From Microcaldota archaeon (GTDB lineage Archaea; Micrarchaeota; Micrarchaeia; Anstonellales; J096), in NCBI GenBank assembly GCA_015522475.1, contig WAMF01000018.1, positions 1 through 64,000 on the forward strand: DNA of 64,000 bases. The letters run 5' to 3'. A program made the position numbers and the translations under genes. The notes under the pieces were generated by a model, which worked only from the letters and a program-made list of their open reading frames with translations, was not told where the DNA came from and did no database searches. Of the stretch, positions 31,858 to 63,672 are shown piece after piece; the first letter of the stretch is position 1; each line of letters begins with the position of its first letter.

Positions 31858-33201
31858 CTATTCACTTATACTCATTTTAGAACGCCTTTCTAATCTAAAA
31901 CGATGAGCATGCTCCCCTAAAAAGATTGCTCTGTATGCTCGTGGGTTCTTCACCTTAAGCACATGTTTTAGGTTATAGTCGGAGAGTTTAAAGCCCTCTT
32001 TATATCGCTGGCTCCTGTCTCTGAGCTTGGATAGGTACATAGATGGTATCTTCAGCATTTTGTGCAGTTTTTCTGGCCAAGGGTAGAGAAGCTCTTTTAA
32101 GGGCAAAAAGACGTGTTCCGCTCCCTTGCTCAAAGCCAAGCGCTCTAAAGCAGTATAACCCTTTTCATCCCTTTGAAGGAGAGCTTTTTCAAGGTAGTCG
32201 CTCGTCGTCATCAAAAGCAACTTTGTCAACGGGATTCTCTCGTATGTTTTTATGATGGCCTCCAAATCCGCGCCCACCTTTAGAAGGTTTACTCTCTTCC
32301 AATCAAGCTCAGCCAAGCCAGAAGACGGCAGAGAAGGAAGGCTTTGTTCTATCAAAGGTTTATTGTTGACAAACCAGCGCAGCCTTACCTGCACATAGGG
32401 GGGATAAACAAATGTATGCTCAGACGTGCGCGCCCACTTCTGCTCGGCTCTATTGAAAAAGAAAGACATTGAACTCCCAAAAGGGGCTGGGGCAAGAGCA
32501 GCTTCTACCTTTTTATAGTGCTCTTCAACAATATCCTTCAGACTTTCGCTCGTAAAGCGGTTCAAGTAGAGGTGATAAAAAGCAAAGAAATTCACATCAA
32601 GAGGTGAGGGCAAAGCAGTGGTTAAAGAGAATAAGAAATTGGCCCGCGAATCTCTAGCAAAAAACAAGTTAAACACTGAATTGTAATATTCTTGAAGTGT
32701 AACATAGTTTTGCGTTAGCGCTGCTTCCAGATTCAGGCCCGCAAAATAAGAGTAAAGTATCGCTAATTTTTCTAGGGTTTCTTTTTCCATCTCTGTAGGC
32801 AGAGAAGGCATTCCTTCTCTCCCTGTACGATAACCCCTACCATTTTCTATTCCGTTCTCCATTTCCTCCAAGTCCATAGGAATAGCAAAATTAAGCCCCA
32901 TGACAATTTCAGAAAACAAGCTCCTTATGAAGGTGGGAAGTTTTCCTACATTGTTAACACGCACATAGACACCCTCGCTGTTCTGCACATAGTAAGGTTG
33001 AGCCCCATCAAGTGCATCTCCTTCAATAACAAAACATTCTTTTGTGCTTCCCCCTCTTGTGCTTCCCTCTTTTCCTTCCATTTCCAGCCCTCGTAGAAAC
33101 TCCTCTTCTGGCAAAAGAGGCTTAGCGCCCGACGATTCCTCAAATCTCATCTTTAGCTCATCTATTACTTTCCTCTTCTCATCATCTTTCATGTATATCA
33201 C
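31858..33201 (-). CDS. hypothetical protein
   Basis: 447-aa open frame, ATG start, no recognised motif. Confidence 0.6.
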   Translation of the reverse strand: MIYMKDDEKRKVIDELKMRFEESSGAKPLLPEEEFLRGLEMEGKEGSTRGGSTKECFVIEGDALDGAQPYYVQNSEGVYVRVNNVGKLPTFIRSLFSEIVMGLNFAIPMDLEEMENGIENGRGYRTGREGMPSLPTEMEKETLEKLAILYSYFAGLNLEAALTQNYVTLQEYYNSVFNLFFARDSRANFLFSLTTALPSPLDVNFFAFYHLYLNRFTSESLKDIVEEHYKKVEAALAPAPFGSSMSFFFNRAEQKWARTSEHTFVYPPYVQVRLRWFVNNKPLIEQSLPSLPSSGLAELDWKRVNLLKVGADLEAIIKTYERIPLTKLLLMTTSDYLEKALLQRDEKGYTALERLALSKGAEHVFLPLKELLYPWPEKLHKMLKIPSMYLSKLRDRSQRYKEGFKLSDYNLKHVLKVKNPRAYRAIFLGEHAHRFRLERRSKMSISE

Positions 33202-33267: not shown

Positions 33268-36200
33268 ATGGTGTCAAAAAGAGCATATTTAAAAACACAT
33301 CCATCCCTATATTTTCATAGGTGCAAGCCTATGGAGACACAAAAACAATTTGACAGTTATAATGGGCGAGAAATTAGAAAGCATGATAAGCATATGAGAT
33401 TAAGATTAAGGCTAGCAAAGCCTCCTGAAGCCACTGCAAGCAAAAGACAGACGCCAGAAAATACAACGGGAACATTAGAGGCGCCAAAAACGGGAAATAA
33501 AAGCATAAAGGAAAAACTCTTCTACCTCTTCTTGGCAGGTTGGCTTTCAGCTTTTCCTCTAGCAACAACGGCTATGGCAAAAACGGGAAGCACAGCTAGC
33601 ACAGCCTCGCCATCCGTTGGCCAAGCCCTAAATGAAGAGAAAAAAGCTAATGAGCTCATAAAGTGGGCTGACGAAGAGGAAAAAAGCCTTCAGGCGTGGG
33701 AAAGCAATCTCAAAGCCTTCATATACAACACGCCATGGAACTCGCGTGACTATGTCTATAGGGCAAGCAGGCTCGACGACATAGAACAAAGCTTTTACAA
33801 CATAACAAGCAACTACGTACAATTCAAAAAGCGGCCAAAGATACTTGACACACTCAGCTTTCTCAGAGACAGAGCGAGGGAAATAGAACATGCATTCTCT
33901 TCATACGAATCCATCCTAAAAGGAAGGGCCTACAGTAAAAAGGGTGTCAAAACACTAGAAAAAGCCTATGCCAAAATTTTCGCACTGCTTCGCAAGCACG
34001 ATATTCGCCGACGTTCAATAGCAAGAATGCTCTTTCTCTTCCTTCAGCCGGAGGAGATTCAAAGATGGGAAAAGGGCAAGCTCTCTACGCGCGGCCTATT
34101 AAAAACCATATCCTTCACATCCAACATCACATCAGCCATAAAGACCCTCAATGGCTTCCTCAAGATAGATGGCCTTCAGATTAAACGCGTTGAGGAGCTG
34201 TTTGGCAAAGATAGGGCCTCGCTCATAGACTATGCAAGCTATATAAACCTCGGCACCATTGAAAAAATAAGTTTAGCTTCTACGCTCGAGAGCTTACATT
34301 GGCAGCTCAATCCCACATCAGTATTGGCATTCCTAAAAAGCTTAGAAGGCATTCAAGATGTATCCGTGAGAGTGGCTATGATTAAGTACGTGCTGCCTGT
34401 AGTTGCAGCAAGTTATGTAGATCCCGCGGATGTATATAGAGTTAGCTCGACAGTAGCAAACTTCGCCGCCCAAATAGACGGGCAGAACGCGCCCCACTTA
34501 GCCGTCGAATACATAATGTATACTTCCCACATGCTGAAGAGCGTTTATCCAACAACAGAAGAACTTAGAAGAGAAACGCTCAAAGAAATGCCAGCTAGCC
34601 TTTATACATGGCAAAACGTACCCACTCAAATGCAAAGGGCATGGAGCTTTTCTTCATACGGAATAGCCGGCCAACTCATAAGTAGAAAAACAACCCTTTC
34701 TGCAAACGCGGTGCTGCCTCCAGAGAGTGTGGACAATGGAACAGTCTTCAAAAGCAACACAACCATCAAAGCTGAGATGCACGAACCACTTGTAAGTGTA
34801 GACATAACAAAGCCTTATACATACAGCTATAGATGGAGCTCTGCTTACAATATATACGCACTCCAACCGCCACCCCAGTACTACCCTATGGGCGGCATTG
34901 TATTCACGTCGCATGCAGATATGGGCGCTAGTTATGAAAGAGATAGATCATTAGAAGTGAGAAACGGCGAGATAAAAAGGACAGAGAGCGACATGCTCTC
35001 ATGGCAAACCCATGTAAAAGAAGATGAAAGGACAGACGCCAATGCGAATATAAACTGGACATATTCTGCAAGTTCAGTAACCGATACCACAAGCCAAGTG
35101 GGCTCATCCACTTCATTGCACGAGTTCACAGGTGAGGCAAACGCTTATGAAGCTTTCAACAGAGGCACAATGAGCGCTTCGTTCTTTTACAACGAAAATC
35201 AAAGCCCCATAGAGGGAAGCTATTCTACATACGCTTCCATGAATGGAGCTTTCCCCTCCATAAATGCCTCGACAAACTACAGACGAGAAGAGAATGAAAA
35301 GCACAACTTAGACGGCAGTGTGAAAACAGCAGAAGAAGAAGGCAAGGTAGAGATGGTTGCCAACGCGCCATTCATATGGCCCGATTACTTTCTATTCACG
35401 GGCCTACAGACAGACTATAGCTCTACAATAAGCCAATTTCCCGGTGCCGTAACAGACGCGCCCTTGAAAGGGCATAGAGAAGAGCTGGGATGGAACGGTA
35501 AAAAGGCGAAGATCAGTGGGGGCCAAAGTTTCATAGAAAGCGACGATAAAAAGCAAGAGACTGGTTACGTAGAAGGCGGAAACGCAAAGACATGGGGCGT
35601 CGGCTTATACAGTGGCAACGTTAACATGGATGAATATGGGGTGAACGAAGGACAGCCTCCTGCACAAGTCGAAGCAGGCTATATACATAACACCGCTAAT
35701 TCCCAAACGGTTCTGCGCGGTGGCAGCAAAAACGGCGACGCCAACATATACGGAAAACATGCCAATGACACTTCACACATAGAAGGCCAAGCAAGCAAAA
35801 AAGGCAAAAAAGGAAGTGTTGCAGTACTCGCTCAAGGCAACATCTCGTCATATATAACTCATGGTTCGGTGTACGCCGAATACAGCAATGAGAGGGATGT
35901 AGAAAGCTCAGCCATTCAAGCAAATGGAAATGTAGGAGAATGGATAGTCGGCACTTCCTACGCTCACTTGTCTAACTCAGCCAACCATGCAAGACAGAGC
36001 AGCTTCACAGCATATGGAGGAAACGGCACACTGACGGCCATGGTTGGTGAAGCGAATGAGAGCAGCCCAAACAGGGATAAAACATACACACGCTATGGCG
36101 CGCTTCTCGACTATAGATGGGGCAAGGCACAAGGAGATACATTGGGGAATGAAGGCCTAGGCGCTATATACAAGAGAAACCAATTCTACGGCTTGTTATT

Positions 36201-37113
36201 GGGCGGCAGCTTAGACTTAGGTAAGCACTGGACAATCACTGCCCACGCTAGACACATGTTCATGCCCACACATCCCACTCTTTTAGCTACAGAAGTGCAG
36301 AAAAGAGAGCCCGTGTTGTTAGATATAGGCGCATATTCTAGGAGCTCGACGGGCACCGCTAGAGGAGGGGGCATATGGTTATATACCGGAAGCGCAGATT
36401 ACTCTTGGTTTGTCTTCGGTAGTTATGCTGTTGACTACACTTCGCTCAACACGTTTACATACTTTTCGCAAAGTGGTATGAACAGCAGTTCTGCCTTAGA
36501 CGAGCTATTCAAGCCCCTTGCAAGCCTCGACACACAGAGAGAGCTTATACGAAATCTTGAGTTGGCAACGGGCTGGCAGCTCTACAACTACTCCCAATTC
36601 GGCAACTGGAGAGGAAACAGAAAGCGCATAAAATATTGGTACTCAAATAGCAGTGATTGGATGGCAGCTAGATGGCTCTATTCGAAGGACTTCAAAAACA
36701 ATAAAGGGTATGCCGCCATACTTGACTGGTGGCATATATATCAAGAATATGACCTCGTTGAAACAAGAGACCTAAAGTTATTCAGAGATAAAGGCCATAA
36801 AGAAGGCGTGGAGCTGAAATGGGGGCAGTACACCTTGGCGAGACCTAGACCCTTCTATCCTATAGACTTCATGGGCCAAAACATCTTTTCACTCTCTGCC
36901 TATTACGAAAGCCACACATATAACCCTACATACAAAGGATGGGCGCGCATCGAAGGCTTCGGCAAGCTATTATTTGCTCACCAAGAAAACTACACGACAA
37001 GCGGCATATGGAAAGCCAAAAACTGGCGTCTTGGCGTTAAGCTAAAGGCAAGCATAGATATGCTGGGGAGGCTATGGAGAAAAACGTGGCACATTCTCTT
37101 TGGAAGATGGTAG
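33268..37113 (+). CDS. large exported protein: signal/TM, alpha-helical N-terminal half, beta-barrel-like C-terminal half
   Basis: 1281-aa ORF; hydrophobic LFYLFLAGWLSAFPLATTAMA near the N-terminus; residues from about 430 on show alternating polar/aromatic strands (e.g. YGLLLGGSLDLGKHWTITAHARHMF; GGGIWLYTGSADYSWFVFGSYAVDYT); no C-terminal TM helix. Confidence 0.8.
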   Translation: MVSKRAYLKTHPSLYFHRCKPMETQKQFDSYNGREIRKHDKHMRLRLRLAKPPEATASKRQTPENTTGTLEAPKTGNKSIKEKLFYLFLAGWLSAFPLATTAMAKTGSTASTASPSVGQALNEEKKANELIKWADEEEKSLQAWESNLKAFIYNTPWNSRDYVYRASRLDDIEQSFYNITSNYVQFKKRPKILDTLSFLRDRAREIEHAFSSYESILKGRAYSKKGVKTLEKAYAKIFALLRKHDIRRRSIARMLFLFLQPEEIQRWEKGKLSTRGLLKTISFTSNITSAIKTLNGFLKIDGLQIKRVEELFGKDRASLIDYASYINLGTIEKISLASTLESLHWQLNPTSVLAFLKSLEGIQDVSVRVAMIKYVLPVVAASYVDPADVYRVSSTVANFAAQIDGQNAPHLAVEYIMYTSHMLKSVYPTTEELRRETLKEMPASLYTWQNVPTQMQRAWSFSSYGIAGQLISRKTTLSANAVLPPESVDNGTVFKSNTTIKAEMHEPLVSVDITKPYTYSYRWSSAYNIYALQPPPQYYPMGGIVFTSHADMGASYERDRSLEVRNGEIKRTESDMLSWQTHVKEDERTDANANINWTYSASSVTDTTSQVGSSTSLHEFTGEANAYEAFNRGTMSASFFYNENQSPIEGSYSTYASMNGAFPSINASTNYRREENEKHNLDGSVKTAEEEGKVEMVANAPFIWPDYFLFTGLQTDYSSTISQFPGAVTDAPLKGHREELGWNGKKAKISGGQSFIESDDKKQETGYVEGGNAKTWGVGLYSGNVNMDEYGVNEGQPPAQVEAGYIHNTANSQTVLRGGSKNGDANIYGKHANDTSHIEGQASKKGKKGSVAVLAQGNISSYITHGSVYAEYSNERDVESSAIQANGNVGEWIVGTSYAHLSNSANHARQSSFTAYGGNGTLTAMVGEANESSPNRDKTYTRYGALLDYRWGKAQGDTLGNEGLGAIYKRNQFYGLLLGGSLDLGKHWTITAHARHMFMPTHPTLLATEVQKREPVLLDIGAYSRSSTGTARGGGIWLYTGSADYSWFVFGSYAVDYTSLNTFTYFSQSGMNSSSALDELFKPLASLDTQRELIRNLELATGWQLYNYSQFGNWRGNRKRIKYWYSNSSDWMAARWLYSKDFKNNKGYAAILDWWHIYQEYDLVETRDLKLFRDKGHKEGVELKWGQYTLARPRPFYPIDFMGQNIFSLSAYYESHTYNPTYKGWARIEGFGKLLFAHQENYTTSGIWKAKNWRLGVKLKASIDMLGRLWRKTWHILFGRW

Positions 37114-37135: not shown

Positions 37136-38119
37136 ATGAGTAAAAAAGATAGCAAAGAGGAAGATTTGCTAAATTTGGAGAATAATATGAAACAGCTCTT
37201 AGAAGAAATTAGAAGTAACAAACTTGCTATAGATAAACTTAGCAATGAAATGCTTGTGAATATAACGATAAATCCTTATGATTTCAACATCGCAAAAAAA
37301 TCCCTTCTTGCAATCTATAGGCGGGAGGAGATAGAGCTCTTAAAGGAAAGCCTTAAAAGTCCCTTTAAGAGCGTTAGAGACCTTGCGAAGACATTCATAA
37401 AAAAGTTAGAGAAAAAGGTGGGAAAAGACCCTATAGAACTCGCCATATCCTCTGTCTTGATACGAGAAGCGTTTCAGGGCCTCGAGCGGGTTTTAGAAGA
37501 AGATGACATAGACGCCCTTGCAAAAATAGGGCGAGAGAGTAAGCACAAAGGCGTAAAGACGCTTGCTTGGGCACTTCATCTAGAGAGTTACTTTGACGTG
37601 TATAATCTGCTAGCCCACTATGCAAAGCTAGGTACACAACTTAGTGGAGGTTTCTTAACATTGTTAGACGCATTGAAGGGAGATGAAAAAGTACTAGACG
37701 ACTTAAAAGACAAGTATGTATACTTAAAAATTGTGGCCACTGTAGGCAAGGAAAACACTGCCGAGAAAGCAGTGGATCTCTTAGCACAATCTGAACACAT
37801 TGAGCAGAACTTGAAGAGAAGTATATTAGAAGATGTTGCCAAATATGCAGAAAACAAATCTGTGAAAGAAAAAGCAAAGGCGAAAATAATTGAGATTACC
37901 AAACTCAAAAGCAACAGTTCATCCAAAGAGAACGGCCCAGATGGCCCCAGCATAATAGAAGACAAGGGTGTGCTCTTAAACGGCGCTTCAGAAACAAACC
38001 GTGCCTTTAAAGGGAAGATCAAAAACCATCCAAAACAATTAGGCCCAAACGACTCAAACATAGCGAACAAAACGTCCGACAAAGCAAAAAAAGCAAGGAA
38101 ACAAACAAGTAACGAGTAG
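37136..38119 (+). CDS. hypothetical alpha-helical (HEAT-like) protein
   Basis: Helical, charged; RREEIELLKESLKSPFKSVRDLAKTFIKKLEKKVG; 22 nt downstream of the large exported protein. Confidence 0.6.
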   Translation: MSKKDSKEEDLLNLENNMKQLLEEIRSNKLAIDKLSNEMLVNITINPYDFNIAKKSLLAIYRREEIELLKESLKSPFKSVRDLAKTFIKKLEKKVGKDPIELAISSVLIREAFQGLERVLEEDDIDALAKIGRESKHKGVKTLAWALHLESYFDVYNLLAHYAKLGTQLSGGFLTLLDALKGDEKVLDDLKDKYVYLKIVATVGKENTAEKAVDLLAQSEHIEQNLKRSILEDVAKYAENKSVKEKAKAKIIEITKLKSNSSSKENGPDGPSIIEDKGVLLNGASETNRAFKGKIKNHPKQLGPNDSNIANKTSDKAKKARKQTSNE

Positions 38120-38209: not shown

Positions 38210-40219
38210 ATGATATATAAAGCTAAGGATGAAGTTGATAGAAGAGATAATAAACCGCTAGGTTTTGTAGCTTTCACATTTCCCTTAGCAGCCCTAACAA
38301 TTCTCTCTTTAATCATAGGCACTGTTTGGGCCAACCCTTGTAGAGAAGTAACCGCTTACCCCTTAGCTGTTTTATCTGACGTAGGACAAGGCGAGGTTAT
38401 ACCTTTCCACTTTATACCTGTAGACAACGAAACAACGCAAAAACTACCCTCTGTATTCTTAGACGTAGATAAAACACGCTATGGCAAAGACTTTCAGCAA
38501 AGCGTCCAGAATGCCGCTTATTTAGGTGGTAAAATGGCGGGAGGCTTCTGCTCTGCTATAGTAGATGTAGAGAATCCGGGGGAAGAGATGGATGGACCCT
38601 CTGGAGGCCTTCTGTTTACGCTGGCATTCTATTCTATGGATAAGGGTAGAGTCTTACCTCTCAATGAATATGCCATAACTGGAGCAGTAGACAAAGAAGG
38701 GAATGTATTACCTGTAGGGGGTATAATTGAAAAGCTGGAAGCGGCTGAGAAGAAGGGTAGAAAAAAGGCCATCATCCCATTAACATCTCGCTACGATTAT
38801 ATACTAGCACACAAGCTCTTCCCAGACATGCAAATTTACTACGTAAGTACCGCCAAAGAAGCTATCGACGTCATAGAAGGCAGGAAAAACGTGAAACAAA
38901 GCAGTGAAGAAGCTGAGCACGCTCTTTTCAATGTCAACTTGACACTTTCATTGCGGGCAAATTTAACTAATTACAACAACAGCGTCAATTTTACACCTTA
39001 TTACACTTCATTGGAAGAGTTGTATAGAGAAAACCTTGATGCAGTAGAAAACGAGCTCCCTCCAACAGCCAAAGCTTACTACAAAGCCGTCTTAAACAGA
39101 AGTGAAGAGGTTGCCCAAAAAGGGTACATGTACGCAGCTGCAAACGCCCTATTCCTAACAAATGGTGAGCTCATGGCTATGAAAGAGGTCTTCAATGCGT
39201 TAAACAAAGGAGAGTTAAAAGATATCCAACCCAACGAAACAACAACCTACAAAAAAGCTGCTACGTGCATTAGCAAAGTAGAGGAGCTGAGGAAAAATGT
39301 GCAAATTTCAGAGAACAACTTCGAATACATAGGCGGAGCAAATCTGCGTCTAACAAGGGCAGAAACATATCTTCACAGAACAGTGGAAGAGGGGGAAAAC
39401 ACACTTGCATGGAAAGTGTATACTATATACAACTATGCTGAAGCCTACGAATGGTGCGAATTTAGCAAACAGCTTTACGAGACAGCTGAGAAGATAAAAG
39501 AGGCTAATAGAGGAGGGCAGAACAAAGCGGGAAACACCAGTTCATATGCATATTCAGCAAGTTCAACTTCGCCATCTCTACCCTTTCCAAAAGAACTCAT
39601 AAAATCGTGGGTTGTTTATCATATAGATAACATAACATCAAACTATGTAGTCAACAACGAGATAAAACTGGACGGGGAAGAGAAAGAATTCTATTTAGCT
39701 ACACTCATAAGCCTAGCGCACGACGACATACTTACCGCCGCGTATTATACGGCGTACTTAGAAGCAGACCTTAACCATTGTGCAAGCATGAGAAACTTTT
39801 CTTCTTTTTGGGGAAAAGTCTTCCACAGTAGTTACGTATTCTTTGGAAGCAAGAATGCCAGATACGTGGAGTGCTTAGCAAAGAATCTAGAAGAGCTCAA
39901 AACAATCGTAGACGCTGCTTACTATGCTTACGGTGGGGAGCTCACAAACAGTACAGTTCCATCAGAGAAGAACAGAGCTAAAGGCTCAAGCCTCTCAAAT
40001 TGGCCAAGCGAGCAAAGCAAGAAGGGGAGCAAGGCAAATGAAAACAAAGAAGGATATAATGAAAGTGTGCTGTGGATCATTTTGATTATCCTATTTGTAA
40101 TTGCCGTCGTATGGGCATTTTGGCAGAAAGGGAGCATATACGTCGGTAAGAGCAATAAGAACCTACGACCCAGACAGCCATACGGAAAGCCTTATAATAA
40201 GAAGGGAAAGAAGGGCTAA
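38210..40219 (+). CDS. membrane-anchored exported Lon-family (S16) serine protease
   Basis: N-terminal TM/signal; DGPSGGLLFTLAFY (catalytic Ser) and GNVLPVGGIIEKLEAAEKKGRKKAIIP (catalytic Lys); C-terminal TM ESVLWIILIILFVIAVVWAFW. Confidence 0.87.
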   Translation: MIYKAKDEVDRRDNKPLGFVAFTFPLAALTILSLIIGTVWANPCREVTAYPLAVLSDVGQGEVIPFHFIPVDNETTQKLPSVFLDVDKTRYGKDFQQSVQNAAYLGGKMAGGFCSAIVDVENPGEEMDGPSGGLLFTLAFYSMDKGRVLPLNEYAITGAVDKEGNVLPVGGIIEKLEAAEKKGRKKAIIPLTSRYDYILAHKLFPDMQIYYVSTAKEAIDVIEGRKNVKQSSEEAEHALFNVNLTLSLRANLTNYNNSVNFTPYYTSLEELYRENLDAVENELPPTAKAYYKAVLNRSEEVAQKGYMYAAANALFLTNGELMAMKEVFNALNKGELKDIQPNETTTYKKAATCISKVEELRKNVQISENNFEYIGGANLRLTRAETYLHRTVEEGENTLAWKVYTIYNYAEAYEWCEFSKQLYETAEKIKEANRGGQNKAGNTSSYAYSASSTSPSLPFPKELIKSWVVYHIDNITSNYVVNNEIKLDGEEKEFYLATLISLAHDDILTAAYYTAYLEADLNHCASMRNFSSFWGKVFHSSYVFFGSKNARYVECLAKNLEELKTIVDAAYYAYGGELTNSTVPSEKNRAKGSSLSNWPSEQSKKGSKANENKEGYNESVLWIILIILFVIAVVWAFWQKGSIYVGKSNKNLRPRQPYGKPYNKKGKKG

Positions 40220-40245: not shown

Positions 40246-41100
40246 ATGCAAGGTGAGTTAATGAAAAAGAAGATAAAGGCACTTGCAGAGAGATGGAATG
40301 CTTATATACGGGCCATGCAAAAGGGTGAAGCACTCCCAGAATTAGAGGTGCCAGAGTTTCCCTTAGCGTACGGTATCAAGATAAAAGATTGCTTAAAAAC
40401 ACTCAAAGGCCTTCGACGAGAAGAATTAAAGGAAAAACTAAGCTCAACCCAGTTTAAGAAAAAGCTCCGCTTGTGCTCTTTTCTTATAAAGCACAACTAT
40501 ATTCATGCAAATACATTGGAAAAGCTCCTCAGTGAAACACCTGAAGACATAAGAGAAAGTATAGCCAAGGCATTGAACAAGGGTGTTTGGCCAGATGAGG
40601 AGAATGGTGAAAAAATTGAAGAGGTTAAGCGAAGTAACATAGCCACAGCATTAAGGAAATTATATATAGGTGTATCTTACGATGGCAAGTTAAAATCCAG
40701 CTTCCCCTACGAACTAATAATCCACCCTATAAAAGGTAAAATTATATGGGTACGCGAAGACATAGCACCCAAGTTAGAAGAGCTGGCGAGCAGCTTAGAA
40801 AAGACGAGTGCCCAAATCCAGCTCATGAACGCTCAGAGACAGATTAGAAAATTCAGCGACGAGGAAGAAAAACAATTTGAACATCTTCAAAAGCAATATT
40901 TAGAGCTGTCAAACAAGATAAATAAACTCATCGAAGATGAAAGAGCTAGCGAGCAAGGAGAAGAGCACGAAAACAAAGAAGAAGAAACTGCCAACTCTGA
41001 AGAAAAGGAAAGAGGAGAAAGTGAAGACCAAGAGGAAATCAACGATGAGGAAGAAGATGAGGAGAAGGGAATAGAAAACGATATTGAATTTGAAGATTAA
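40246..41100 (+). CDS. hypothetical protein with strongly acidic C-terminus
   Basis: Helical ORF ending EEINDEEEDEEKGIENDIEFED. Confidence 0.6.
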   Translation: MQGELMKKKIKALAERWNAYIRAMQKGEALPELEVPEFPLAYGIKIKDCLKTLKGLRREELKEKLSSTQFKKKLRLCSFLIKHNYIHANTLEKLLSETPEDIRESIAKALNKGVWPDEENGEKIEEVKRSNIATALRKLYIGVSYDGKLKSSFPYELIIHPIKGKIIWVREDIAPKLEELASSLEKTSAQIQLMNAQRQIRKFSDEEEKQFEHLQKQYLELSNKINKLIEDERASEQGEEHENKEEETANSEEKERGESEDQEEINDEEEDEEKGIENDIEFED

Positions 41101-59010: not shown

Positions 59011-60315
59011 TTACACCAGCCTCGTCAAGTTGGAGATGTCCAAAGGTTCGCCAAAGAAGGCTGTGAACACTTTCAAAGCTGTATTAAGTATAGCGGTTAT
59101 GACCGTAACTGTGAAGGCAAGCTCAAGAACAATGGGTAAGAACTGAATGGAAAAGACTGTCATGGCCATTAATATGCTAAGTGCACCCACTGTAGTAAAT
59201 AATCCCCCTGCAGCCGCGCTCGTCCGCCCGGGAAGCAGGACGCTAATATAAGAGCCCATCATACTTATACCCGCACTACCAAGCGGACCTAGGAGCCACC
59301 ACGGTGAAAGTCCATAGGCTGTAGGCACTAAGCTAGGCTGCTTTGGAGGTGTCACATCCTCTTTTTTAACGGGCTGGCCCGCTTGATCACTCGCTAAATT
59401 CTGGGCATTTTTGCCTACTTTGTTGGTTATATCTTTCGCGAGGTTTTTAATCTTTATAGACGAGATTTTGTTGAGGTTTTTGAGCACATCCCTATAAGCA
59501 GGGGAGGACAGTTCTGGTTTGTTAGTTTGCAAATTGTATCTCACGATCATCTGCCCCGAGAAGAACTCATAGAAGAGGGCTGAAAGAAGAGGCAAGAAAA
59601 GTGCCATGCCCACAGACAAGCCCACAAGCGTCCCACCGATTTTTCTGAATGGAGGGAACGCCCTTAAGATGACACCCAAAGGCAAGAGCACCTCTATGAA
59701 GCCATACGTCATAATATCGTAGAGGTATAGCATGCTAGCGGATACAATCTCTGATGTGGCTATACTTATCATCGTCGTGTTCATCACAGCCTTAATAAGA
59801 CTCCATATACCTTGAAAGGCCATGGGACTAGTGAAGTATATTGTGTGGATGTTTGGTGTAAACACGCCGCCCGCTATAAAGGCCATGATCTGTAAGAAAT
59901 AAAATGAGAGTTTCAGCGTAGCAGTCATCTCCAACCACAGTCTATAGCCTATTGAGTACACGCTTTCTGTGCCTCCGAAGAGAGGTAAGGGTAAGCAGTT
60001 CACTTCGAGCAACACAGGAATTACTACAATAACAAAGATAATGAAGAAGAAGAACTCCGTAAGTTCTGCCTTTGAATAGCTTTGGAGTCGTTTATTACCT
60101 ATAAGAATGCCTAGCAAGTAGAGGAACACCAAAAAGAAGACACCACTCACACCTATGAAGAGGTATGTAGGAAGAAGTGCCTTTAGAGTCCCAACAACGC
60201 TGCCTCCACACACCGCCTTTTCTATGATTGGTGGTCTGAAGACACCCTCAAATCCCAGCATTTCTACGAGTTTTTGCCATAGAGCAGTTGCCGCGCTCCC
60301 TACTGTCCCTGCCAC
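59011..60315 (-). CDS. polytopic membrane protein, member 2 of a paralogous cluster
   Basis: VILRAFPPFRKIGGTLVGLSVGMALFLPLLSALFYEF; N-terminal TM-KAELTE-TM architecture. Confidence 0.8.
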   Translation of the reverse strand: MAGTVGSAATALWQKLVEMLGFEGVFRPPIIEKAVCGGSVVGTLKALLPTYLFIGVSGVFFLVFLYLLGILIGNKRLQSYSKAELTEFFFFIIFVIVVIPVLLEVNCLPLPLFGGTESVYSIGYRLWLEMTATLKLSFYFLQIMAFIAGGVFTPNIHTIYFTSPMAFQGIWSLIKAVMNTTMISIATSEIVSASMLYLYDIMTYGFIEVLLPLGVILRAFPPFRKIGGTLVGLSVGMALFLPLLSALFYEFFSGQMIVRYNLQTNKPELSSPAYRDVLKNLNKISSIKIKNLAKDITNKVGKNAQNLASDQAGQPVKKEDVTPPKQPSLVPTAYGLSPWWLLGPLGSAGISMMGSYISVLLPGRTSAAAGGLFTTVGALSILMAMTVFSIQFLPIVLELAFTVTVITAILNTALKVFTAFFGEPLDISNLTRLV

Positions 60316-61982
60316 TATATCACCTTCATTATTGCCGCTATGTCAATGGGCGTACGCATGGCCCTTGATATAACAAACGTCGCACCTATTACGATGTAAA
60401 CGTTTAAAGCAGTGAGTATAACACTAAATAAACCTATTATGACAGCACTCTGTATAGCCACATAGAGTACAAGTCTAGCTACAAGATAGGCTAAGCTCAA
60501 ACCCGCAAAGAAGCGGAAAACACCTACAAATGCTGAAGAGACAAAATAGCGCAAGTTCCTTACAGTCGTGGCAGAGGGAGAACCACTACGCCCAAAATTA
60601 ATACCTAATTTAGAGAAGAAGCTTGCCAAGACACTTCTTATTGTCTTATCTTTTGTCACTACTTGCAAAGCACCCTTACCTAAAAACGCCGTAGTAGATG
60701 CTCCAAATATTGTAGCAATGATACCGCCAGTAAATGTAAGCTGGTGCATGGGAATAGACATATTGTTGGGTGTGTCCCAGCCTATGAATATGGTATAAAT
60801 AGCTGCGTCTATAGAGAGAAGGAAAGGATACAGGAAAAAGAGAGATAAACTTATAGCGATGAGGTTATTGCCTAAGCCTTCTGTGAGCTTTATAGCCCTA
60901 AATATCATACCTATAGGGAATATAACTGTAAGGAGGTAGCTGTCTGTAAAGCACAGAACCAAATATTTGGCCATCCATTCGCCCATAGCTAGGGTCATAA
61001 ACTCCAATATGAATGACGCGCCGTCTATAAGCGGTCTAACGAAATGACCTAAAGGTAAGTCAAAAGCTAGCAAAGAATCTGACGTGAGAGGGAAGTGCAT
61101 AACGATGCCGTAGAGTTGATATACAAGTTCCAAAGAGAGACCTGTAAATGTAGAATAGGCTGCCATCTCAGACACAAGGTTCATTGTGAAGCGTTTTGCA
61201 AAGTCCATGAGATAATAGTTGCCATTCTTGTCTATGAAAGCCTGCATGAGGAATAAGACAAAAACAAAGAGGACAATATTGAATATGATATGCTCTATGT
61301 AGAGGACGAGTTCTGCATAAGCGGAAGCTCCATTGGGGTCGGTTATCTTCTTAAGGAAGTACTTAAAGATGCCTAAAGCTAGGATGAAAACAGACGCAAC
61401 ACCTACGTAAATGCCCACATCCACCATTAAGTAAGGATTGGGATAGCATACGAACTTCTTGTATATGCTAGTAGCGAGATTAACCCACCACTTATGGGTT
61501 GAGTCATACAAACTTTTGGCGAATTTCTCGAGAGGGGAAGGTTGTTTAGGTGGAGCTGGCGGATTGGACGGCGGAGGATTATTAGTGGGACCTTGAACGG
61601 GGTTGGGGTATGAAGGGGGAATAGAGTTAGAAAGTGAATAAGCACGTGAAGTGGGTGAATAACGGGAGCGGCTGTAATGGGCAAAGTAAGTATTTGAGGA
61701 GGATGCAGACAAAGATGGAGATGAAGGTATAGATGAGTGCGAAAGTGTAGTCGAGGTTGTGGAGATGGAAGAGCCATTAAACTTAACATGCACTACCTGG
61801 CCATGCTCGTGCCCAAGCTCAGAAGCTGCCCAAATAGTGGGAAGCGCAAATACCAGCAAGACAAGGAATATCACAAGCGCTGTGGATAGCTGAGATAGAC
61901 GTGCAAATACAAGCTTTGAAAGCTTTGTAGGTTTTGTAGGCTCATATGAATTGTGTGAGACCCGCGATTTCAAAGTCACCAC
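60315..61982 (-). CDS. polytopic membrane protein, member 3 of a paralogous cluster, with Ser/Pro-rich N-terminal segment
   Basis: MIFRAIKLTEGLGNNLIAISLSLFFLYPFLLSIDAAIY; N-terminal TM then STTSTTLSHSSIPSSPS...PPPSNPPAPPKQPSP. Confidence 0.8.
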   Translation of the reverse strand: MVTLKSRVSHNSYEPTKPTKLSKLVFARLSQLSTALVIFLVLLVFALPTIWAASELGHEHGQVVHVKFNGSSISTTSTTLSHSSIPSSPSLSASSSNTYFAHYSRSRYSPTSRAYSLSNSIPPSYPNPVQGPTNNPPPSNPPAPPKQPSPLEKFAKSLYDSTHKWWVNLATSIYKKFVCYPNPYLMVDVGIYVGVASVFILALGIFKYFLKKITDPNGASAYAELVLYIEHIIFNIVLFVFVLFLMQAFIDKNGNYYLMDFAKRFTMNLVSEMAAYSTFTGLSLELVYQLYGIVMHFPLTSDSLLAFDLPLGHFVRPLIDGASFILEFMTLAMGEWMAKYLVLCFTDSYLLTVIFPIGMIFRAIKLTEGLGNNLIAISLSLFFLYPFLLSIDAAIYTIFIGWDTPNNMSIPMHQLTFTGGIIATIFGASTTAFLGKGALQVVTKDKTIRSVLASFFSKLGINFGRSGSPSATTVRNLRYFVSSAFVGVFRFFAGLSLAYLVARLVLYVAIQSAVIIGLFSVILTALNVYIVIGATFVISRAMRTPIDIAAIMKVI

Positions 61983-63672
61983 CCAAGAAACGGGATGTGC
62001 CCTTCATGGCTCCAATTGTTGCCACTATAGCTATGTATGAAAGAAAACCTCCGAAAAATACAAAGTTCGCCACCATATCGCCCAATGCAATGACTAAATA
62101 GAAGAGGAATTGTGTGTAAGATAAGAAAGACGAAACGCCTATAGCCGCCATGCCTGCAATACCTGCGCCTATAAGAAGGTCTCCTACTGGCGAGGCAGCA
62201 ATAGCTCTCCCTGCACTCACAACAAAGCCGCTGATTCTACCGCCGAAAATTCTGCCAAAGAGAGAACCCACCCCCCTTACAGCTGCCAGACCACCGGATG
62301 CAAGCACGCCCGGCACATAAGGAGCTATTAAGAGTGTGCTTTTAGTGAAGAGGTTGAGAAGCCAGCTTATAACTTTCTTAACTTTGCTTACCCTCTGAGT
62401 TAAGGGAACATTCTTATCAAGAATTTGCTCTGCTGCAGTGATAGCGGGACCTTCTAGCTGCAAAAACTCATTGTACTGTTGCTCAGCTTGCTCTACATCG
62501 TTTTGCTGTTCTTGGGGCAGAGTGGATTGAATGGGAGACGTCGGTATACGACCGTCTGGTGTTAGACGTGTATATGCATAGGCAAAGTTCCAGTTGTTTA
62601 TAGCACCTTTAATTTTTTTGGGTGATCCCGAGAGCCACGTTTGATAATCCTTTACCTCCAGCATAAGCCCACTAGCTCCCGTATATATTCGATTAAGGCG
62701 CATGTGCGTGTGAGGGCTAGGCTCTATAGAAAAGTAAATAGAATCCATGATTGACAACACAGCTGGATAGAAGAAGAAAAGGCTGAGATAGACACCCAAT
62801 ATAGTTCCACCCATCTTTCTCGTTAATGGGAAAGCTCGAAGTATTGAACCCACAAAGACCATTATAACGAACGTCTTCGCTACGAAGTCATATAGGAAGT
62901 ATTGGAAAGCTATGAGTATCATAACCTTCTGGAAGAAGCCCATGTAATATTCAATTATAACGTTGAGAGGCGCGAGATAGCCACCTACCCTTTGAGAGAA
63001 TTCAACACCCTGCTGGCCAAAACTAGAGGCAGTCGTCTCACCCATCTTTGAAAAGATGTAAAAAGAGAGCACATTCCTATAAGCTGCTATGGATTCGACA
63101 AGGAGAGCTCTAAGATATCCATCTCCGACAAGAATAAAGCAAGGATCTATAGTGGAGGATGAAGGAGAAGCTTGAGGAGGTGTAGTGGGTGGCTGCTGGC
63201 CGGGTTGGCCACCATATTGGCTGCCGGAATGACCCCCAGATTGACCTCCTGACTGACCACTAGGCTGGTTGCCAGACTGACCGCCATATATTATACCATT
63301 TAGATATTGCCTGAATATACTCTGTATGCTAACACCTGGACCAAACGATTGACCCCCTGAACTGCCGCCAGAACCTCCAGAAGAAGGTGGCGTTACAAAA
63401 CTCGCTGTGCAGTAGTACTTAGCTCCTATAGGGTCTATGCTTCTCACAGCTGCAGACGATATGTTTGCAAGGCTAGGAAGGAAAAGGCTGAAGAGAAGCA
63501 CGACCAAAACGAGCTCCCATAGCTCGCTCCAAGCAGCCTTTTTATACTTCTCGTTGTTCAAGATATAACCTAAAAAGAGTAGACCCACACCTAGCAGGAT
63601 ACCCCCTACTATTAAATAGGAAAGGTACGAAAGCGCAACGCTATACCAATTGAACCAGCTTACTGCAACCAT
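61942..63672 (-). CDS. polytopic membrane protein, member 4 of a paralogous cluster, with Gly/Gln/Ser-rich extracytoplasmic segment
   Basis: SILRAFPLTRKMGGTILGVYLSLFFFYPAVLSIMDSIY; GGSGGSSGGQS...GGQSGNQPSGQSGGQSGGHSGSQYGGQPGQQPPTTPP. Confidence 0.8.
   Translation of the reverse strand: MVAVSWFNWYSVALSYLSYLIVGGILLGVGLLFLGYILNNEKYKKAAWSELWELVLVVLLFSLFLPSLANISSAAVRSIDPIGAKYYCTASFVTPPSSGGSGGSSGGQSFGPGVSIQSIFRQYLNGIIYGGQSGNQPSGQSGGQSGGHSGSQYGGQPGQQPPTTPPQASPSSSTIDPCFILVGDGYLRALLVESIAAYRNVLSFYIFSKMGETTASSFGQQGVEFSQRVGGYLAPLNVIIEYYMGFFQKVMILIAFQYFLYDFVAKTFVIMVFVGSILRAFPLTRKMGGTILGVYLSLFFFYPAVLSIMDSIYFSIEPSPHTHMRLNRIYTGASGLMLEVKDYQTWLSGSPKKIKGAINNWNFAYAYTRLTPDGRIPTSPIQSTLPQEQQNDVEQAEQQYNEFLQLEGPAITAAEQILDKNVPLTQRVSKVKKVISWLLNLFTKSTLLIAPYVPGVLASGGLAAVRGVGSLFGRIFGGRISGFVVSAGRAIAASPVGDLLIGAGIAGMAAIGVSSFLSYTQFLFYLVIALGDMVANFVFFGGFLSYIAIVATIGAMKGTSRFLGGDFEIAGLTQFI

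Follow-up and report, generated by a model that had tools for sequence, protein, structure and literature searches.

A candidate contact protein with outer-membrane-protein-like composition in a genus of Micrarchaeota

The window analysed here, a 64,000-nucleotide stretch of DNA from a Micrarchaeota archaeon, carries a gene for a 1281-aa protein that we read, with a probability of about 0.5, as a secreted or envelope-associated, lineage-specific contact protein. It combines a signal-peptide-like N-terminus and a helical front with a large C-terminal region whose composition resembles that of outer-membrane proteins (OMPs), and it is both a candidate for host contact in a DPANN genus and a useful protein on which to test barrel prediction beyond bacteria.

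The ORF listing returned the same coordinates and length that an initial annotation of this DNA had given (Table 1), and because a 1225-aa relative exists in a second species of the genus, the ORF is a real gene and not a chance frame. The relative (L005:6507-10184) lies on contig JALWQW010000019.1 of a Candidatus Micrarchaeota MAG and has the same architecture, with 26% identity overall and 32% in the aligned N-terminal part. Since this named MAG belongs to the same genus, the window belongs to Micrarchaeota, in agreement with the archaeal host already proposed. Translation may in fact begin at Met22 (33331) or Met43 (33394), because a TATA-like element, TATTTAAAAA, sits inside the ORF at about 33286-33295, and because by alignment the relative has only ~46 residues ahead of its signal helix.

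Export had been proposed from an N-terminal signal-like helix, and this held up: in both relatives a hydrophobic segment (residues ~80-104 in the window protein) follows a long charged N-terminus and ends in A|KT (AMA|KT in the window protein), which is predicted to be a good signal-peptidase site. The helical stretch, previously put at about 350 aa, comes to ~340 aa, with hydrophobicity correlated at lag 3 and anticorrelated at lag 2 across residues 105-440 and with an AF2 model made of helices only (mean pLDDT 48.6, at which the fold is not trustworthy). A Foldseek search of this low-confidence model against the PDB returned helical-repeat matches that were all weak, with none reaching E<=0.001, and no TPR match was found in the domain at E<=10. 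The C-terminal region of ~740 aa, probably beta-rich, contains no Cys, 2.3% Pro, 13% aromatic residues and 10% Gly. Internal repeats did not exceed those of shuffled sequences. The claim that a C-terminal TM helix is lacking was borne out, and none was seen elsewhere outside the signal (best 19-residue KD window there, 1.40). Neither Pfam, NCBIfam, PHROGs nor PDB sequences gave a family match for the protein, so that the comparison with OMP families suggested in the initial annotation came back empty; hhalign against OMPs did not discriminate, as at this alignment depth real OMPs do not match one another either.

Table 1. Coordinates of the 1281-aa ORF, its parts and its neighbours in the window
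Feature	Position	Strand	Basis
ORF, 1281 aa, ATG start	33268..37113	+	ORF listing; relative of 1225 aa in congener, best segment E 8e-27
N-terminal extension, charged, residues 1-79	33268..33504	+	sequence and alignment with relative
Signal-peptide-like segment, residues 80-104, KEKLFYLFLAGWLSAFPLATTAMA|KTG	33505..33579	+	sequence; A-K-T kept in relative
Alpha-helical domain, residues 105-440, ~340 aa	33580..34587	+	hydrophobicity autocorrelation; AF2 model
Linker with conserved FKS and YYPxGG motifs, residues 441-540	34588..34887	+	alignment
C-terminal region, residues 541-1281, probably beta-rich	34888..37110	+	composition, strand tests, TM scan
327-aa protein, no family, 22 bases downstream, co-directional	37136..38119	+	ORF listing, profile search
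669-aa exported S16 (Lon_C) protease, TM segments at N- and C-terminus	38210..40219	+	profile search; in 38/39 relatives
284-aa protein after S16 gene	40246..41100	+	small proteins similarly placed after S16 in several relatives
447-aa protein, divergently transcribed, no family	31858..33201	-	ORF listing, profile search

Apart from the protein of the congener, searches of 59 relatives, of 296 genomes of the class and 303 of the phylum, and of the genome contigs, viral contigs and plasmids yielded no further homologue; two matches at E~0.05 were discarded as too weak. The gene was likewise not found in the third congener or in the rest of the family, and since the three MAGs are 84-88% complete its absence from the third congener is not certain. 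With such low identity inside one genus, the protein appears to be genus-restricted, patchy and fast-evolving, and patchiness with fast divergence is as expected for a surface or contact protein.

The 327-aa protein encoded just downstream is a probable operon partner, and the S16 gene beyond it, found in nearly all relatives, identifies the locus as archaeal. In the congener the relative's gene sits at another locus, flanked by the genes for malic enzyme and for an SLT/LysM protein, on a 126-kb Micrarchaeota contig that has FtsZ and malic enzyme on one side and the Ile-tRNA synthetase gene on the other, and there is therefore no conserved partner gene. In the genomes inspected, no protein of this kind is encoded ahead of the S16 gene; downstream, the S16/Lon_C gene is often followed across the order by a protein of ~250-280 aa. 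The SLT/LysM protein of the congener, convergent with the relative's gene (L005:10202-12175, minus strand), is 657 aa long; its N-terminus is Tat-like, and besides an SLT (lytic transglycosylase) domain it shows a weak match to LysM. Of the 39 genomes of the order, 22 give SLT-domain matches, 15 of them over the cut-off, and some may be contaminants; to our knowledge archaea have no murein. Elsewhere in the window, three adjoining genes on the minus strand (59011-63672; 434, 555 and 576 aa) have no Pfam match.

The 1281-aa protein is clearly of another kind than the organism's ordinary surface proteins, because those encoded on the same contig (1703, 2018 and 854 aa) differ from it in Cys, sequon density and TM anchor. 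They contain Cys, and where the C-terminus is intact (in two of them) it carries a TM anchor; the mature 1281-aa protein is devoid of Cys, and it and its relative have 0.5-1.3 sequons per 100 aa, against 3.5-5.4 in the same-contig proteins. Two or three such giants (1703, 2018+ and 854 aa), of very high sequon density, are found close together at G000:C18 124001-152832 (L085:14847-19958, minus strand, and L086).

The initial annotation had left two readings for the back half, an outer-membrane-type barrel or a large beta-sheet surface protein, and composition points towards the first. The ratio of V+I to aromatic residues in the C-terminal region is 0.61 in the window protein and 0.68 in the relative, within the 0.42-0.81 spanned by 13 of 14 E. 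coli barrels (the exception being Ag43, at 1.14) and below the 1.03-2.05 of 12 archaeal PKD-containing proteins. A classifier that sets OMPs against soluble and surface beta proteins, with archaeal beta proteins among the negatives, placed both on the OMP side (0.2 to 4.2 for the window protein, 2.0 to 2.5 for the relative), where held-out OMP windows scored 0.2 to 4.7 and held-out archaeal surface proteins were nearly all negative. However, the classifier also gives +1.4 for the helical front of the window protein, so the OMP-side signal is partly one of general composition. An earlier classifier built on E. coli alone was dropped, as it flagged archaeal PKD proteins too.

Strand alternation is less clear. 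The repeated amphipathic strands with aromatic girdles described in the initial annotation were not confirmed: the quoted peptides are present and some align as conserved (WFVFGSYAVDYTSLNTFTYF / WYVFASYNRAYTNIQPFLYI), but in the window protein the alternation is barely above that of shuffled sequences (z=1.6 in a run test, 1.7 in a strand HMM and -0.3 in an earlier symmetric measure, which the other two replaced) and below that of most real OMPs. It is somewhat clearer in the relative. In the run test the relative reached 2.0, so that two diverged proteins score much as FhuA does (1.9), and none of the non-barrel controls exceeded 0.5. The strand HMM, for which 14 E. coli barrels served as training set, gave the relative 2.9, and 4.1 for its last 425 aa, with held-out OMPs at 1.5-7.3; since soluble archaeal PKD proteins reached up to 6.2 and TamB 5.8, strand alternation does not tell OMPs apart from soluble archaeal beta proteins or TamB. 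The lag-1 and lag-3 hydrophobicity anticorrelation is missing in the window protein but negative in 8/8 OMP controls (up to -3.8), and a C-terminal aromatic beta-signal is not conserved, the window protein ending in ILFGRW and the relative in VDRIIK. The AlphaFold check proposed for the back half, run on the C-terminal 812 aa with a two-sequence alignment, was uninformative on the fold (pLDDT 25.2).

What stands of the two readings is a protein that is exported and has no anchor, with helices in its front part and, behind them, a region of OMP-like composition that is probably rich in beta structure. On our preferred reading as a contact protein, it would be exported by Sec and cleaved at AMA|KT, leaving a mature protein in which the helical domain is followed by a large part that is probably antiparallel and beta-rich. 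It would then be released from the cytoplasmic membrane without an anchor, to be located in the pseudo-periplasm, on the S-layer or at the cell exterior, where the helical domain may dock on the envelope of the producer and the beta-rich part may offer a host or partner cell a large surface rich in aromatic residues and Gly. Two independent genes of the same architecture and the lack of an anchor helix support this reading, as do the 39 relatives without Omp85, the soluble archaeal beta surface proteins that equal or exceed the strand-alternation scores, and the single membrane, S-layer and host attachment of cultured Micrarchaeota; a composition unlike that of the organism's own surface proteins and the side on which the classifier places the protein speak against it. 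Since profile searches recognised no adhesion domain, the adhesive role is a guess.

The most serious rival, though we consider it unlikely, is a beta-barrel that spans the membrane and carries a helical domain in the periplasm, laid out as in PgaA or BcsC and inserted by an unknown route into an archaeal outer membrane or a partner's membrane. We give slightly less credence to the full claim, that the C-terminal ~740 aa form an outer-membrane-type barrel in a Micrarchaeota archaeon, assembled without Omp85 and implying an archaeal outer membrane or insertion into the membrane of a partner cell. Such a barrel would be very surprising, and we know of no other OMP-type protein in an archaeon; if true, it would bear on the second membrane of ARMAN-type cells and on barrel assembly without Omp85. 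The signal peptide, the absence of a TM helix, the OMP-like composition and the strand scores of the relative are all consistent with a barrel, but no known insertase family accompanies it: Omp85/BamA was found in 0 of 39 genomes of the order (the window's own being 88% complete), with 7 bacterial controls matching. No OmpA domain passed the cut-off among the same 39 genomes, and the window's genome has no TolC-type match. In another MAG of the order, with 4% contamination, a real TolC-type OEP domain was seen (G011:C51:5099-5626; E 9e-23), probably on a bacterial contaminant contig. A published survey of the Omp85/TpsB superfamily also found none in archaea (PMC4104836). As to the membrane itself, an earlier study reported both an inner and an outer membrane for ARMAN cells (Comolli 2009, as cited in PMC4243693), whereas cryo-ET of two cultured Micrarchaeota, whose cells attach to hosts, showed one cytoplasmic membrane and an S-layer (PMC8975820; PMC11329633). 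An outer membrane in this lineage, which the barrel of the initial annotation would imply, is without genomic support, and the published observations on it conflict.

A minor or lineage-specific component of the S-layer or envelope lattice, attached non-covalently, is quite improbable. The protein is large, exported and anchor-less, and the lineage has S-layers whose anchoring is not known (PMC8975820), but such components should be conserved and abundant, and this protein is not sequon-rich and was found neither in the third congener nor in the rest of the family, the MAGs being incomplete. Contamination by bacterial DNA, or a gene that came recently from bacteria, could account for the OMP-like composition, but we reject it as very improbable in view of the archaeal context of both genes (one 1.1 kb upstream of the order-wide S16 gene on a 153-kb contig carrying genes typical of DPANN, the other on its separate Micrarchaeota contig), of a GC content of 0.458 vs 0.438 and of searches that found no bacterial, plasmid or viral relative.

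Among known systems, PgaA and BcsC of bacteria join a helical N-terminal domain (TPR) to an outer-membrane beta-barrel. The 1281-aa protein shares with them a signal peptide, a helical front, a large C-terminal region of OMP-like composition and the absence of a TM helix, and differs in having no detected TPR, no OMP family match, weak alternation, no BAM insertase and no known outer membrane. The outer-membrane pore protein of Ignicoccus, set beside the window protein by description only, is a small helical pore protein. It is the known example of a pore protein in an archaeal outer membrane (Burghardt et al. 2007, as cited in PMC4243693). The C-terminal TM anchor, high sequon density and Ig/PKD-type domains of archaeal anchored surface and S-layer glycoproteins were not found in the window protein. 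Archaeal multi-domain surface proteins, with PKD or Ig-like domains and a C-terminal TM anchor (for example the 1703-aa and 854-aa proteins encoded on this contig), are like it large, exported and beta-rich; in contrast to them it has no anchor helix, no Cys, few sequons and no PKD or Ig domain, and it is rich in aromatic residues and Arg where they are rich in V, I, T, S and P.
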